DNA of 33,556 nt from the NCBI GenBank assembly GCA_012960105.1, contig DUBV01000023.1, positions 1 through 33,556 of the forward strand. Reading direction: 5' to 3'. The translations under genes and the position numbers were made by a program. The notes beneath the pieces are model-generated. The model was not told where the DNA came from and made no database searches. It was given only the letters and a program-made list of their open reading frames with translations. Positions 6,015 to 33,556 of the stretch are shown here, in pieces. Origin of the DNA: Thiotrichaceae bacterium. GTDB taxonomy: Bacteria > Pseudomonadota > Gammaproteobacteria > Eutrophobiales > Eutrophobiaceae. Each line of letters begins with the position of its first letter. Position 1 is the first letter of the stretch.

Positions 6015-6042
6015 GTGTCATCAATTAATTAAACAGTGAGTC

Positions 6043-6210
6043 ATTCCCGCGAAGGAGGGAATCCAGTGATTGTTAATTAGGCACTATCTTTAGAATTAGA
6101 GAACAACTAAAAATACTCTGTACCAATCCGTATTGATAAAGAAATGGCGGCTTGAATATATATCTTCAACACATTTGCCATCGCAACTAGATTCCCGCCT
6201 GCGCGGGAAT
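6043..6210. repeat. Inverted pair of dRS3-like 20-bp repeats
   Basis: ATTCCCGCGAAGGAGGGAAT lies at 6043-6062 and ATTCCCGCCTGCGCGGGAAT at 6191-6210. Each is itself an ATTCCC...GGGAAT inverted repeat, the form known from Neisseria as dRS3. The flanks also match once the second copy is reversed (GTC before the motif, C-AGT after it), so the copies face each other across 128 bases. The spacer carries no gene I can support. The right copy lies 21 bases past the TRAP gene stop and could fold as a hairpin in that mRNA. Similar palindromes are scattered in many proteobacteria. Confidence 0.7.
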
Positions 6211-6230
6211 GACAAGTATGAGTTTTAAAA

Positions 6231-15506: not shown

Positions 15507-16415
15507 TTGTTTAACAATGTTAATTTCAATTCGATCATGCCGCTTCTGACAGATTGTGCTGCACGCAATATGGCCAAAGATGAAATGCTAATTAAGTCCG
15601 GCGATACCAACAACAATGTTTACTTAATATTGTCAGGTTCATTTAATGTACATCTGACAGCTGATAATTCTGATCCAGTAACAATACTTAAACCCGGACA
15701 AAGCATCGGCGAAATAGCTGTAATAGATCATCAACCAGCTTCAGCTTATGTCTCCGCTGCCGAAGACTCTCGCATACTCATCATTGATGAAGAAGTCATG
15801 TGGTCATTAATCGGCAGTTCACATGCAATTGCTAACAATCTACTTGTTGTCTTATCCCAACGTTTACGTCATGGCAATTCGGTTATCAATAAAATTAAAG
15901 GATTGCTTATAGAATATGAACACAACGCAACGGTTGATGCATTAACAAGTCTTTATAATCGTCGCTGGCTAGATAACACCATGATTCGTGTTATGCACCG
16001 TTGCTATAAAAACCATGAGGCACTATCCGTGATGATGATCGATATTGATCGTTTCAAAGACTACAACGATAACTATGGACATCTTTCCGGTGACATTGCT
16101 TTACGCACAGTTTCGCAAACTATTAAACAATATTTACGACCTGTGGATATGGTAACGCGTTATGGCGGCGAAGAATTATTTGCCTTATTACCCAGATTAG
16201 ATATCGATGCCACTCTAACCATTGCCGAACGCTTACGAGAGGCTATTAAAGAAACTGAGATAGCAAATGAAAAAGGCCAGCCTTTACCCCATGTTACCGT
16301 ATCAATTGGTGTTGCTGAAATGATTGATCATGATGACCCGCATAAATTAATCGAAGCTGCTGATAAAGCGATGTATGAAGCAAAACATTCGGGGCGTGAT
16401 AAAGTTTGTAGCTAA
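15507..16415 (+). CDS. Cyclic-nucleotide-binding-like and GGDEF diguanylate cyclase
   Basis: Residues about 15-105 form a cyclic-nucleotide-binding fold (GD..NNVYLILSG, then IGEIAVIDHQPASAYVSA). The Arg that normally contacts the cyclic phosphate is missing, so cAMP binding is doubtful. Residues about 142-300 form a GGDEF domain with DALTSLYNRRWL, the active site GGEEL at 220-224 and an inhibitory I-site RPVD at 211-214, so cyclic-di-GMP synthesis with product inhibition is expected. The start is uncertain: the only usual start codon before the domain is the TTG at 15507, with AGGA too close to serve as a ribosome site. The frame stays open upstream to 15414 with protein-like sequence but no ATG, GTG or TTG. 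It is 59 bases after the tgpA-like gene. Confidence 0.9.
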   Translation: MFNNVNFNSIMPLLTDCAARNMAKDEMLIKSGDTNNNVYLILSGSFNVHLTADNSDPVTILKPGQSIGEIAVIDHQPASAYVSAAEDSRILIIDEEVMWSLIGSSHAIANNLLVVLSQRLRHGNSVINKIKGLLIEYEHNATVDALTSLYNRRWLDNTMIRVMHRCYKNHEALSVMMIDIDRFKDYNDNYGHLSGDIALRTVSQTIKQYLRPVDMVTRYGGEELFALLPRLDIDATLTIAERLREAIKETEIANEKGQPLPHVTVSIGVAEMIDHDDPHKLIEAADKAMYEAKHSGRDKVCS

Positions 16416-16422
16416 ATACGTG

Positions 16423-16522
16423 TACTACCGAGCGCATTACTTCGTTGTTTCGGCAACTGTTCCCTGCATCGCCTAAAGCGCCTAAAGCGCCTACTGTTGG
16501 TGCTCTACCGCCCACATCCATG
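16423..16522 (-). repeat. Copy A of an intergenic repeat family, with a 9-bp tandem duplication
   Basis: Read on the minus strand this 100-bp stretch runs CATGGATG, GG-GGTAGAG, CAACAGTAGGCGC, TTTAGGCGC, TTTAGGCGATG, GGGAACAGTTGCCGAA and ATGCGC. The ends match the repeat at 33.3 kb (GGGAGCAGTTACCGAA there, 14 of 16 identical) and the middle matches 28527-28550. GCCTAAAGC is repeated twice in tandem at 16471-16488, and the second unit is absent from the 28.5-kb copy. It fills the gap between the convergent GGDEF and msbA genes. Confidence 0.65.
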
Positions 16523-16556
16523 TGTGCGTCTAGCTATCACACATATTTTTAATATT

Positions 16557-18302
16557 CTAATCTTGAAACTGTACTTGATGCAGCTTGGCATAATAATTTT
16601 GAAGTTTTAATAACTCTTCATGTTTGCCTTGCTCAACGATACGTCCTTTATCAAGCACAATAATTCGATCAGCATTTTCTATAGTCGACAAACGATGCGC
16701 AATAATTAAACAGGTACGACCTTTTTTAACATTTTCCAAAGCCGATTGAATATGCCGTTCTGAACGTGTATCTAATGATGAGGTTGCTTCATCAAGAATT
16801 AGTATAGGCGCATCTTTTAATAGTGCGCGTGCTATAGCAATTCGTTGTCGTTGACCGCCTGATAATCGCGTGCCATCTTCACCAATAATGGTTTCCATTT
16901 TCTCTGCTGGTTCATTAATAAACTCTGTTGCACATGCCGCTTCTGCTGCTGCCCAAATAGCATCATCGGAATAATTTTTCAATTCACCATAAGCAATATT
17001 ATTTCTCACCGTATCATTAAATAACACGACATCCTGACTTACGTAGGCAATATTGCTACGTAAGGATAATAATGACAGTTCATTGATATCTATATCATCA
17101 AGAAAAATCGAGCCGGACTTAGGCTGATAAAATCGTGGCAATAAATTTGCTAATGTTGTTTTGCCGCTGCCGGACTCACCAACCAGAGCAACCGTTTCTC
17201 CCGGCGCAATACTAAATGAAATTGTTTGTAAGGCATCTGTCTTTGCTTCGTCATAGAAATACGAGACACCTCGAAATTCAATTTTACCTTTTACATTTTT
17301 TAATTCCTTGTTTCCGAGTTGTGGCTCTATATCAGTATCAAGTATGGTAAAGACACTTTCGCATGCTGCCAGTCCTTTTTGTATATGTTCATTAACACCA
17401 GCCAAACGTTTTAGCGGGCCGGTTATCATTGCAATTGCTGCGAAGAAAGAAACAAAATCACCTACAAGTAAACTACCCGCTGCGGCTTGTCTTGTTGCGA
17501 CATAAATAATTATGGCGAGAAGAATAGCAACGATCATTTGAATTGCTGGGCCTGTGGCCACTGATGCCTGAATAAATTTCATCGCAAAACGACGATAGGC
17601 GTTAATGGTATTAAAAAAACGTTGTTTCTCTACTTCCTGTCCGCCGTATAACTTAATGACCTTCTGTGCATCGAAACATTCACCAAGGACATCGTGAAGA
17701 TCACCCATCGTACCCTGAACTTTACGACTCATTTTACGGATTCTACGTTTAATAATTGTAACAATGACTGCTATGACTGGTGCGGCAAATAAACAGATTA
17801 ATGCAAGTGTCACATCAATATAAAACATCCAGGCAAGTAAACCGATAAGCGACAAGGTATCGCGAACCAATGTTGAAATAGCATTGGTGGAAGCTTCCTT
17901 TATTTGAGTAACGTCATAAGTAAATCGCGACATCAAACTACCTGAACGGTGCTGATCAAAATAATGAGTCGGCGCATCAATCATGCGATTAAACATCGCC
18001 TGTCGTAAATCCATGATGACCATATTCGCCACCCAATTTAAGGACAGATTACTAACATAGGCAGCAATGCCACGTACGGCAAATAAGGCAATGAATAGAA
18101 ACGGCATAAGCATAATCAGTTGTGGATCTTTTTCAATAAATGCGCCATTTAACAAGGGTTGCATCAAGGCGGGAATAGCTGGGTCGGTTCCTGCCAAAAC
18201 GATCATGCTAAGGATGGAGAGTAAAAATACCCGCCAATAGGGAACAACATGGCTCAAAAGCCTTCGATATAAGCCCATATCTGTACTAATTGTTGAAGCC
18301 AA
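16557..18302 (-). CDS. msbA: Lipid A/phospholipid flippase MsbA
   Basis: The 581-residue half-transporter has an N-terminal six-helix ABC exporter domain and a C-terminal nucleotide-binding domain with GESGSGKTT (Walker A), LSGGQRQR (signature), ILILDEATSSLD (Walker B) and AHRLST (H-loop). Length and sequence match MsbA (E. coli 582 residues), which flips lipid A-core across the inner membrane at the cost of ATP. The TTG at 18302 has a good ribosome site (AGAGAGGA, 4 bases upstream), while the next ATG at 18278 has none, so I keep TTG. The lpxK gene, which often follows msbA, is not here: the next thing downstream is a repeat. Divergent from the phosphoribulokinase gene. Confidence 0.96.
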   Translation of the reverse strand: MASTISTDMGLYRRLLSHVVPYWRVFLLSILSMIVLAGTDPAIPALMQPLLNGAFIEKDPQLIMLMPFLFIALFAVRGIAAYVSNLSLNWVANMVIMDLRQAMFNRMIDAPTHYFDQHRSGSLMSRFTYDVTQIKEASTNAISTLVRDTLSLIGLLAWMFYIDVTLALICLFAAPVIAVIVTIIKRRIRKMSRKVQGTMGDLHDVLGECFDAQKVIKLYGGQEVEKQRFFNTINAYRRFAMKFIQASVATGPAIQMIVAILLAIIIYVATRQAAAGSLLVGDFVSFFAAIAMITGPLKRLAGVNEHIQKGLAACESVFTILDTDIEPQLGNKELKNVKGKIEFRGVSYFYDEAKTDALQTISFSIAPGETVALVGESGSGKTTLANLLPRFYQPKSGSIFLDDIDINELSLLSLRSNIAYVSQDVVLFNDTVRNNIAYGELKNYSDDAIWAAAEAACATEFINEPAEKMETIIGEDGTRLSGGQRQRIAIARALLKDAPILILDEATSSLDTRSERHIQSALENVKKGRTCLIIAHRLSTIENADRIIVLDKGRIVEQGKHEELLKLQNYYAKLHQVQFQD

Positions 18303-28518: not shown

Positions 28519-28526
28519 AGATACAG

Positions 28527-28550
28527 CAACAGTAGGCGCTTAAGGCGATG
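28527..28550 (+). repeat. Copy B of the intergenic repeat (short core)
   Basis: Nine bases after the ruvX stop, this 24-base core runs CAACAGTAGGCGC then TTAAGGCGATG. It matches the minus strand of 16467-16499 except for one base and the lack of the extra 9-bp unit (TTTAGGCGC). Sequence diverges on both sides, so only part of the repeat is present. Confidence 0.65.
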
Positions 28551-28589
28551 TCACGAACTAAGGCTAGTCGAGACAAAGCTTCTGCTTCT

Positions 28590-28791
28590 GCTCGCGGCTC
28601 TTGCCTACTTCCCTGTAGGCAAAAAAGGATGACAAATTCGTCTGCAACGAATTTGGGCAATATACATTGCTCGTAAGAGTGAAATAGAGAGATGTATTTC
28701 ATCCAAAAGCGCAATGTACGAATAGTACATGAGCATTTTGAATCCTTTTTTAACGAAGAGGAGCCGAGCGTAGTAATTGTATCGACAATTA
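28590..28791 (+). promoter_or_regulatory. Chain of hairpins in the leader of the pyr operon
   Basis: The gap before pyrR holds at least four perfect stems and one weaker one: GCCTAC/GTAGGC (28603-28620), CAAATTCG/CGAATTTG (28633-28655), GAAATA/TATTTC (28681-28700), ATGTAC/GTACAT (28714-28730) and TAATTGT/ACAATTA (28774-28791). AAAAAAGGAT at 28621 also pairs with ATCCTTTTTT at 28742, and ACATTGC at 28664 with GCAATGT at 28711, giving alternative long-range folds. This could be a regulatory RNA leader or a mosaic of palindromic repeats; the sequence alone does not decide. Confidence 0.5.
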
Positions 28792-33257: not shown

Positions 33258-33375
33258 GCCACTTCTTTTTGCGTGGCCAAAGCGAGAGTGCATTAGGACA
33301 CGACTGCATGGATGAAGGTGGTAAAGTAACGCCGGGAGCAGTTACCGAAGAGTCCGTATGCGCGTACCGTTAGCA
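33258..33375 (+). repeat. Copy C of the intergenic repeat, with flanking hairpin
   Basis: GCCAC and GTGGC form a hairpin at 33258-33276. The repeat then contains GCATTAGGAC (33290-33299), which pairs with GTCCGTATGC at 33352-33361 at 8 of 10 positions, an inner GTAAC/GTTAC stem, CATGGATG at 33307 and GGGAGCAGTTACCGAA at 33334-33349. The last two blocks and the final ATGCGC match copy A at 16.4 kb in the same order. No gene is present. Confidence 0.6.
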
Positions 33376-33430
33376 ATGTAATATTACCTCGGGTACCCGC
33401 AGGGCAAGGCATTTGGGGTGTGTACGAACA

Positions 33431-33470
33431 GGGACATAGGTAACAAAAAAGTACAGGCACATGGGTTACA
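33431..33470. repeat. Direct-repeat pair resembling an insertion-sequence end
   Basis: GGGACATAGGTAACA at 33431 and GGCACATGGGTTACA at 33456 are near-identical blocks 25 bases apart. The block spacing and the sequence type recall the ends of IS481-like elements as I remember them. No transposase is present in the remaining 86 bases, so this may be a solo end or the edge of an element extending past the window. Confidence 0.35.
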
Positions 33471-33556
33471 CTTTTAAGCTCCAATACTTCGTATTCTGAC
33501 CTTTTACATCTCTAATATTAAATTGACCTAACTGTATCGATCCATAATAAATCATC

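Follow-up and report, generated by a model that had tools for sequence, protein, structure and literature searches.

The stretch of DNA analysed here (hereafter the window, 33,556 nucleotides of contig DUBV01000023.1 from a Thiotrichaceae bacterium) carries related intergenic sequences in three places. The insertion at the GGDEF-msbA intergenic site (approximate bounds 16416..16544, no strand assigned) consists of an outer repeat containing a host repeat and a short core unit. On the minus strand it reads ACACATGGATGTGGGCGGTAGAGCA + CCAACAGTAGGCGCTTTAGGCGCTTTAGGCG + ATGCAGGGAACAGTTGCCGAA, i.e. the left part of the host repeat (ACGCACACATGGATGTGGGCGGTAGAGCA, 16501..16529, minus strand) terminates at the insertion point and is followed by copy A of the unit (CCAACAGTAGGCGCTTTAGGCGCTTTAGGCG, 16470..16500, minus strand, 31 nt with one extra internal 9-mer) and by the right part of the host repeat (ATGCAGGGAACAGTTGCCGAA, 16449..16469, minus strand). 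Paralogous empty sites have the form GGTAGAGCA|AYGCAGG. Between ruvX and pyrR lies a repeat cluster on the plus strand (28526..28785, approximate bounds), which carries copy B of the unit (28526..28547, plus strand, GCAACAGTAGGCGCTTAAGGCG, two mismatches). Copy C (33301..33352, plus strand), finally, reads CGACTGCATGGATGAAGGTGGTAAAGTA|ACGCCGGGAGCAGTTACCGAA and is the same kind of host repeat without the core, i.e. in its empty state; the point of insertion, GTA|A, falls between positions 33328 and 33329.

The first-pass annotation had grouped these places into one intergenic repeat family, the copies of which were said to show a consistent series of blocks, to contain a variable 9-bp unit and to differ by whole modules. 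The three places do exist, the CATGGATG and GGTA-AG blocks are shared by copies A (minus strand) and C (plus strand), the core is present in A and B and missing from C, and A contains an extra TTTAGGCGC. The block series does not extend to copy B, which consists of the core and at most a decayed right flank, and the exact tandem form of the 9-bp unit occurs only in copy A among the loci examined and is thus no variable feature of the family. Moreover, the sequences are dispersed and modular as described, but the three "copies" are two things, namely a hairpin-forming host repeat and a separate 22-nt insertion unit within it, the host being an independent repeat. Judged from the sequence, copy A is a filled host and copy C an empty one, and copy B consists of a 22-mer adjoining a flank that has decayed. 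At up to three mismatches the 22-mer is found twice in the window, as compared to 0.00 expected occurrences, and no terminator or promoter role was found at 16380-16600.

The host repeat has the general form CATGGATG ... GGTAGAGC ... GCCGA and is able to form a hairpin. CATGGATG constitutes the hairpin centre and is flanked by stems that vary in sequence while maintaining pairing, both in the window (16515 and 33307) and at many other loci. At least three complementary flanking pairs are present in 61 of 193 distinct occurrences of CATGGATG versus 3 expected, comprising 26 stems, although these loci had been chosen for the 22-mer and the fraction is not a genome-wide rate; the control word CATCGATG reached the same number of pairs in 2 of 100 cases. 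Other hairpin centres observed are CAAGGATG, CATGAATG, and CATCCCTG.

The unit itself comprises 22 nt, CCAACAGTAGGCGCTTTAGGCG. As the first-pass annotation had anticipated from three places in the window, there are many copies in the 2.54-Mb genome, i.e. 30 at up to three mismatches, 13 of them exact, with no control hits. In this genome the unit also lies between genes, as had been claimed: 27 of 29 copies are in no open reading frame (ORF) of at least 100 aa and the remaining two fall within short ones (103 and 133 aa), the 29 leaving out copy A (L001), which is situated between listed ORFs. In other organisms, by contrast, the unit also resides inside transposase-like ORFs and is thus not confined to intergenic DNA outside the window genome. 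Within the genus, 7 of 12 genomes contain the 22-mer (up to three mismatches), in 30, 20, 13, 9, 9, 4, and 2 copies, again without control hits. A looser pattern, CAACAGTAGGNNNTTTAG, identified 14 of 369 genomes of the class (the window's own included), corresponding to 13 of 271 genera, with one control match, and eight of the other positives of the class harbour 5 to 43 copies each at up to three mismatches, with one control match in total. Other genomes also contain the exact core, a scan of genome contigs having located it in at least 117 stretches. According to their titles, these include records that are not marked as metagenome-assembled genomes (MAGs) and come from Methylobacter, Methylotuvimicrobium, Methylomicrobium, Exilibacterium, Spongiibacter, and Oceanospirillum, and the unit is therefore not a MAG artefact. 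A few positive MAGs bear the labels Nitrospinae, Halobacteria or Ardenticatenales and are possibly misbinned; one labelled Ardenticatenales holds several exact copies (L049, L058, L070, L074), one of them self-nested. A phage origin was considered and rejected, as IMG/VR contains no exact 22-mer; a 71-nt query of host plus unit matched nothing among plasmids or phages, and four 15- and 21-mers of the unit did not occur in open-library papers.

Removal of the 22 nt from each copy and a search of about 1 Mb of loci for the rejoined flanks yielded a core-less, gapless site for 62 of 136 distinct exact copies, compared to 8-15 in ten shuffles in which the flanks were swapped; looser terms raised the number to 73 copies. 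One of the 62 is a nested case, the "empty" site of which is itself a 22-mer of another locus. The base preceding the insert (A or G) is retained in the empty sites, e.g. TGGGCGACTG|AAGTCGCCCC, so that there is no target-site duplication. Grouped by their surroundings, the 157 distinct exact copies form 48 context clusters, and with one representative per cluster (n = 48) position -1 is a purine in all 48, position -2 a pyrimidine in 41 and position +1 an A in 44, while little else is conserved. The only C at +1 among the representatives stems from copy A of the window, where the extra 9-mer comes next. Over 134 copies, a purine precedes the unit in 131 and an A follows it in 125. Copies near locus ends were left out of the sets of 134, 136, 140, and 157 copies, and copies with N in the flanks out of those of 134, 136, and 157. 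Together with the transposase-like ORFs elsewhere, the 48 contexts indicate that the unit does not depend on any single repeat. Flanking inverted repeats in its immediate vicinity are enriched, a score of at least 8 being reached by 7 of 134 copies versus an average of 0.6 and a maximum of 3 in flank swaps, yet they accompany a minority of copies, and we rejected the idea that insertion occurs only at hairpin tips.

Cases in which the unit interrupts a gene were chosen among the joined ORFs of 140 copies, of which the 25 longest were considered, plus two copies at L142. Five of the seven cases tested (L031, L036, L053, L063, and L131) are transposase-like ORFs that are in frame without the 22 nt, whereas both L142 copies, which were left out of the domain scan, fail the frame test. 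When the halves of L053 were searched separately, the DDE_3 profile was matched at 26-86 and 89-142 on the two sides of the insert, and for L063 the profile of the IS91 zinc domain was matched at 3-54 and 57-87. Two of these four split-domain matches, namely the weaker one in each gene, are below the Pfam cut-off. The two halves of L131 contain DUF772 and DDE_Tnp_1, respectively; in L031 and L036 an integrase core is found in the 3' half only and the 5' halves show no good domain. Most simply, the comparison of these transposase-like genes suggests that the empty state is the older one. Inspected by eye, the IS91-type transposase sequences of L063 and L142, from two organisms, contain the 22-mer at apparently the same codon. 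In a single case, L049, the unit is inserted into another unit, and a MITE-like element shared by two MAGs is filled in opposite arms and in opposite directions (L037 versus L044).

These results bear on the possibility that the unit is a conserved functional motif, such as a protein-binding site or an RNA element, which is kept by selection and is not mobile. The identity of the 21-22-mer across distant genera would fit such a motif. On the other hand, near-identical repeats exist entirely without the unit, it interrupts transposase-like ORFs with a frameshift, and neither an Rfam match (none in the window at gathering score) nor a fold signal was obtained, so that we regard a selected motif as most unlikely. 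Predicted structure, to which the first-pass annotation had drawn attention, is not supported for the unit: its stem has at most four pairs and it folds no better than shuffled sequences. In a possible mini-stem the signs of covariation are weak and mixed, as 90 variants include two TA variants for pair 12-22 and nine A:C mismatches at position 13. Two mini-hairpins had appeared plausible because three copies looked compensatory, but they were discarded, as the count over the 90 variants was unsupportive and folding did not surpass that of shuffles.

The cleanest filled/empty case, as far as sequence comparison goes, is provided by the MITE pairs of Methylotuvimicrobium buryatense 5G. A copy in Methylomicrobium sp. 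wino1 (L116) lies inside a MITE-like element, for which, flanks included, 61 matching pieces were found in the M. buryatense 5G chromosome (G271). From this chromosome 20 pieces were sorted into 8 filled ones, 8 empty ones of the form GGGCA|ATGCAGG, and 4 without the host segment. Alignment of the filled L339-L341 with the empty L343 and L344 reveals one internal gap of exactly 22 nt at GGGCA|ATGCAGGG, the sequences being otherwise 97.9-98.9% identical over 278-288 aligned nt (3-6 mismatches), apart from differences at the ends and a 1-nt gap in both pairs with L341. In the same chromosome, 9 of 12 placeable copies are on the leading strand, which is not significant; the other 5 of the 17 copies could not be placed, as the skew signs sampled lie on either side of them. 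Other small pieces are, to judge from the alignments, stacked in these MITEs in the same way as the 22-nt unit. Comparison of L344 and L356 shows a hairpin-like token of 49 nt positioned cleanly between GCAGG and AGCA, with 231 of 231 positions identical otherwise, except at the ends.

At the GGDEF-msbA site (site A) one congener (G001) has a bare spacer, another (G004) a similar outer repeat alone, and the window genome the outer repeat, the host repeat and the unit, while the other congeners differ more widely. At the ruvX-pyrR site (site B) the spacer is short and devoid of repeats in 9 of 11 congeners; the exceptions are another insertion (L196) and a different upstream sequence (L202). 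In congeners (L166 and L292) the unit is part of a MITE-like element that has the ends ATACCCGTGATAYYTGGAAAT and measures about 180 bp in total; at the orthologous sites, G007 and G005 lack this element altogether. One host consensus was found in its empty form in six of the 12 genomes of the genus, each of which also has the 22-mer, and three of the places are in the window genome. Among the loci examined, which derive from one-genome-per-species sets, no orthologous site differing by the 22 nt alone was found.

The unit might be a passive passenger that was inserted by rare illegitimate events and then spread by carrier MITEs, carrier hairpin repeats and conversion between repeat copies, with no mobility of its own. 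All orthologous contrasts inspected in the window genus involve the whole host repeat, the consensus host repeat in its empty form is likewise missing from the five genus members that do not have the unit, and two context clusters hold 51 and 21 of the 157 copies. These two host clusters account for almost half of the copies, so that independent 22-nt events should be about as numerous as the contexts rather than as the copies. What speaks against a passenger is that the 22-nt ends are identical, and the target is mostly the same YR|A, in 48 contexts, including the five transposase-like ORFs and the one self-insertion, since exact ends are not expected from illegitimate events. We therefore consider a purely passive spread improbable, and the core is probably a very small mobile insertion unit of 22 nt that inserts between R and A of a mostly YR|A target without duplication. 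The sequences themselves show, as outcomes, the precise filled and empty sites, the many unlike hosts, the interruption of transposase-like ORFs, the one self-nesting and the carriage by MITE-like and hairpin repeats.

The unit shares certain features with known repeat systems. Like REP elements and REPINs, it belongs to short dispersed intergenic repeats, and it contains GTAG followed by a tiny hairpin, raising the possibility that it is a GTAG-type REP element moved by a RAYT. A passage of PMC3733652 describes some GTAG repeats within longer palindromes, and RAYT as well as Y1_Tnp matches (E 0.001) are present in all 13 core-positive genomes of other families. Among the genomes of other families that lack the core, however, 18 of 19 have RAYT matches as well, i.e. 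these show no association with the unit, and the window genome (98.5% complete) has no match to RAYT, Y1_Tnp or RVT_1 at E 0.001. Seven genomes of the genus contain the core, among them that of the window, and of these six lack Y1_Tnp and five lack RAYT. Moreover, the GTAG of the unit is internal and not terminal, and its stem of at most four pairs differs from a palindrome of REP size, all of which makes a RAYT-driven element very unlikely. MITEs, in turn, resemble many of the hosts, which are MITE-like with terminal inverted repeats, whereas the 22-nt unit has neither such repeats nor a target duplication.

The nearest known kind of element are the SDR elements of cyanobacteria. SDR elements have a length of 21-27 nt, are found in unlike contexts and often inside minitransposons, and two families are self-nested; three families show compensatory stems. 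An RNA copy and its reverse transcription have been proposed for them. SDR elements of Nostoc and its relatives were reportedly the subject of work by Elhai et al. in 2008. By this description the 22-nt unit works like these elements and is a candidate for membership of their class. The unit has fixed ends and falls within the SDR size range, its 48 context clusters include MITE-like hosts, and one copy (L049) is self-nested. It differs from SDR elements in that it occurs in another phylum, as one sequence common to many genera of Gammaproteobacteria, and in that it has no supported secondary structure, in contrast to the compensatory stems of three SDR families. According to PMC4390886, the insertion point of SDR5 in HIP1 (GCGATCGC) lies precisely between nucleotides 3 and 4; this site, CG|A, fits YR|A, which is a lead and not a test.

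Movement via an RNA copy and reverse transcription, of the kind proposed for cyanobacterial SDR elements, would be in line with the shared size class, the minitransposon hosts and the self-nesting. RVT_1 was found in 8 of 25 genomes overall: of the seven genomes of the genus that contain the core, six, among them the window genome, lack it and G004 has one match at 3.6e-9, and it is present in 7 of 13 core-positives of other families. As there is no clear structural covariation either, we consider this SDR-like route rather improbable as an explanation of the unit.

Based on these findings, we suggest that the mobile unit multiplies in two ways. Many copies would be carried within MITE-like and hairpin repeats that move as wholes, and in rarer events the bare 22 nt would be placed at a YR|A site not previously occupied. 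These events might be assisted by an enzyme that acts in trans and cuts after YR at both ends, i.e. at YR|C... on the left flank and at ...CG|A on the right end, and no host function would be required of the unit. As to the reaction, a single-strand cut-and-join on hairpin-forming DNA is the likeliest candidate, albeit a tentative one, followed by a dedicated recombinase, which is possible but less probable; an RNA-templated route appears unlikely, and template switching during replication equally so. Speculatively, active YR|A insertion may be due to an enzyme other than Y1/REP transposases and reverse transcriptases, a reaction of this kind may also be behind the SDR elements (CG|A in HIP1), and other short tokens, e.g. 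the 49-nt one of the MITEs, might move likewise.

If mobile as we read it, the 22-nt unit would be among the smallest mobile DNA units known. The work on cyanobacterial SDR elements is said to have left open how DNA pieces of about 20 nt move, and this question becomes directly testable with a unit whose sequence is invariant, whose ends are exact and whose target follows a simple rule, which occurs in many genera and of which a cultured methanotroph offers near-identical filled and empty sites. Furthermore, a class of mosaic intergenic repeats is explained as stacks of small nested insertions, as at site A in G001, G004, and the window genome.

Two further features were observed in the window. 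At 6040-6067 and 6186-6213 a 28-nt inverted repeat, GTCATTCCCGCG...GGGAATCCAGT, with arms 118 nt apart, has a MITE-like appearance and resembles the dRS3 type. Near the contig end, at 33427-33476, the sequence AACAGGGACATAGGTAACA...ACAGGCACATGGGTTACACTTTT looks like the remnant of another repeat or insertion sequence.
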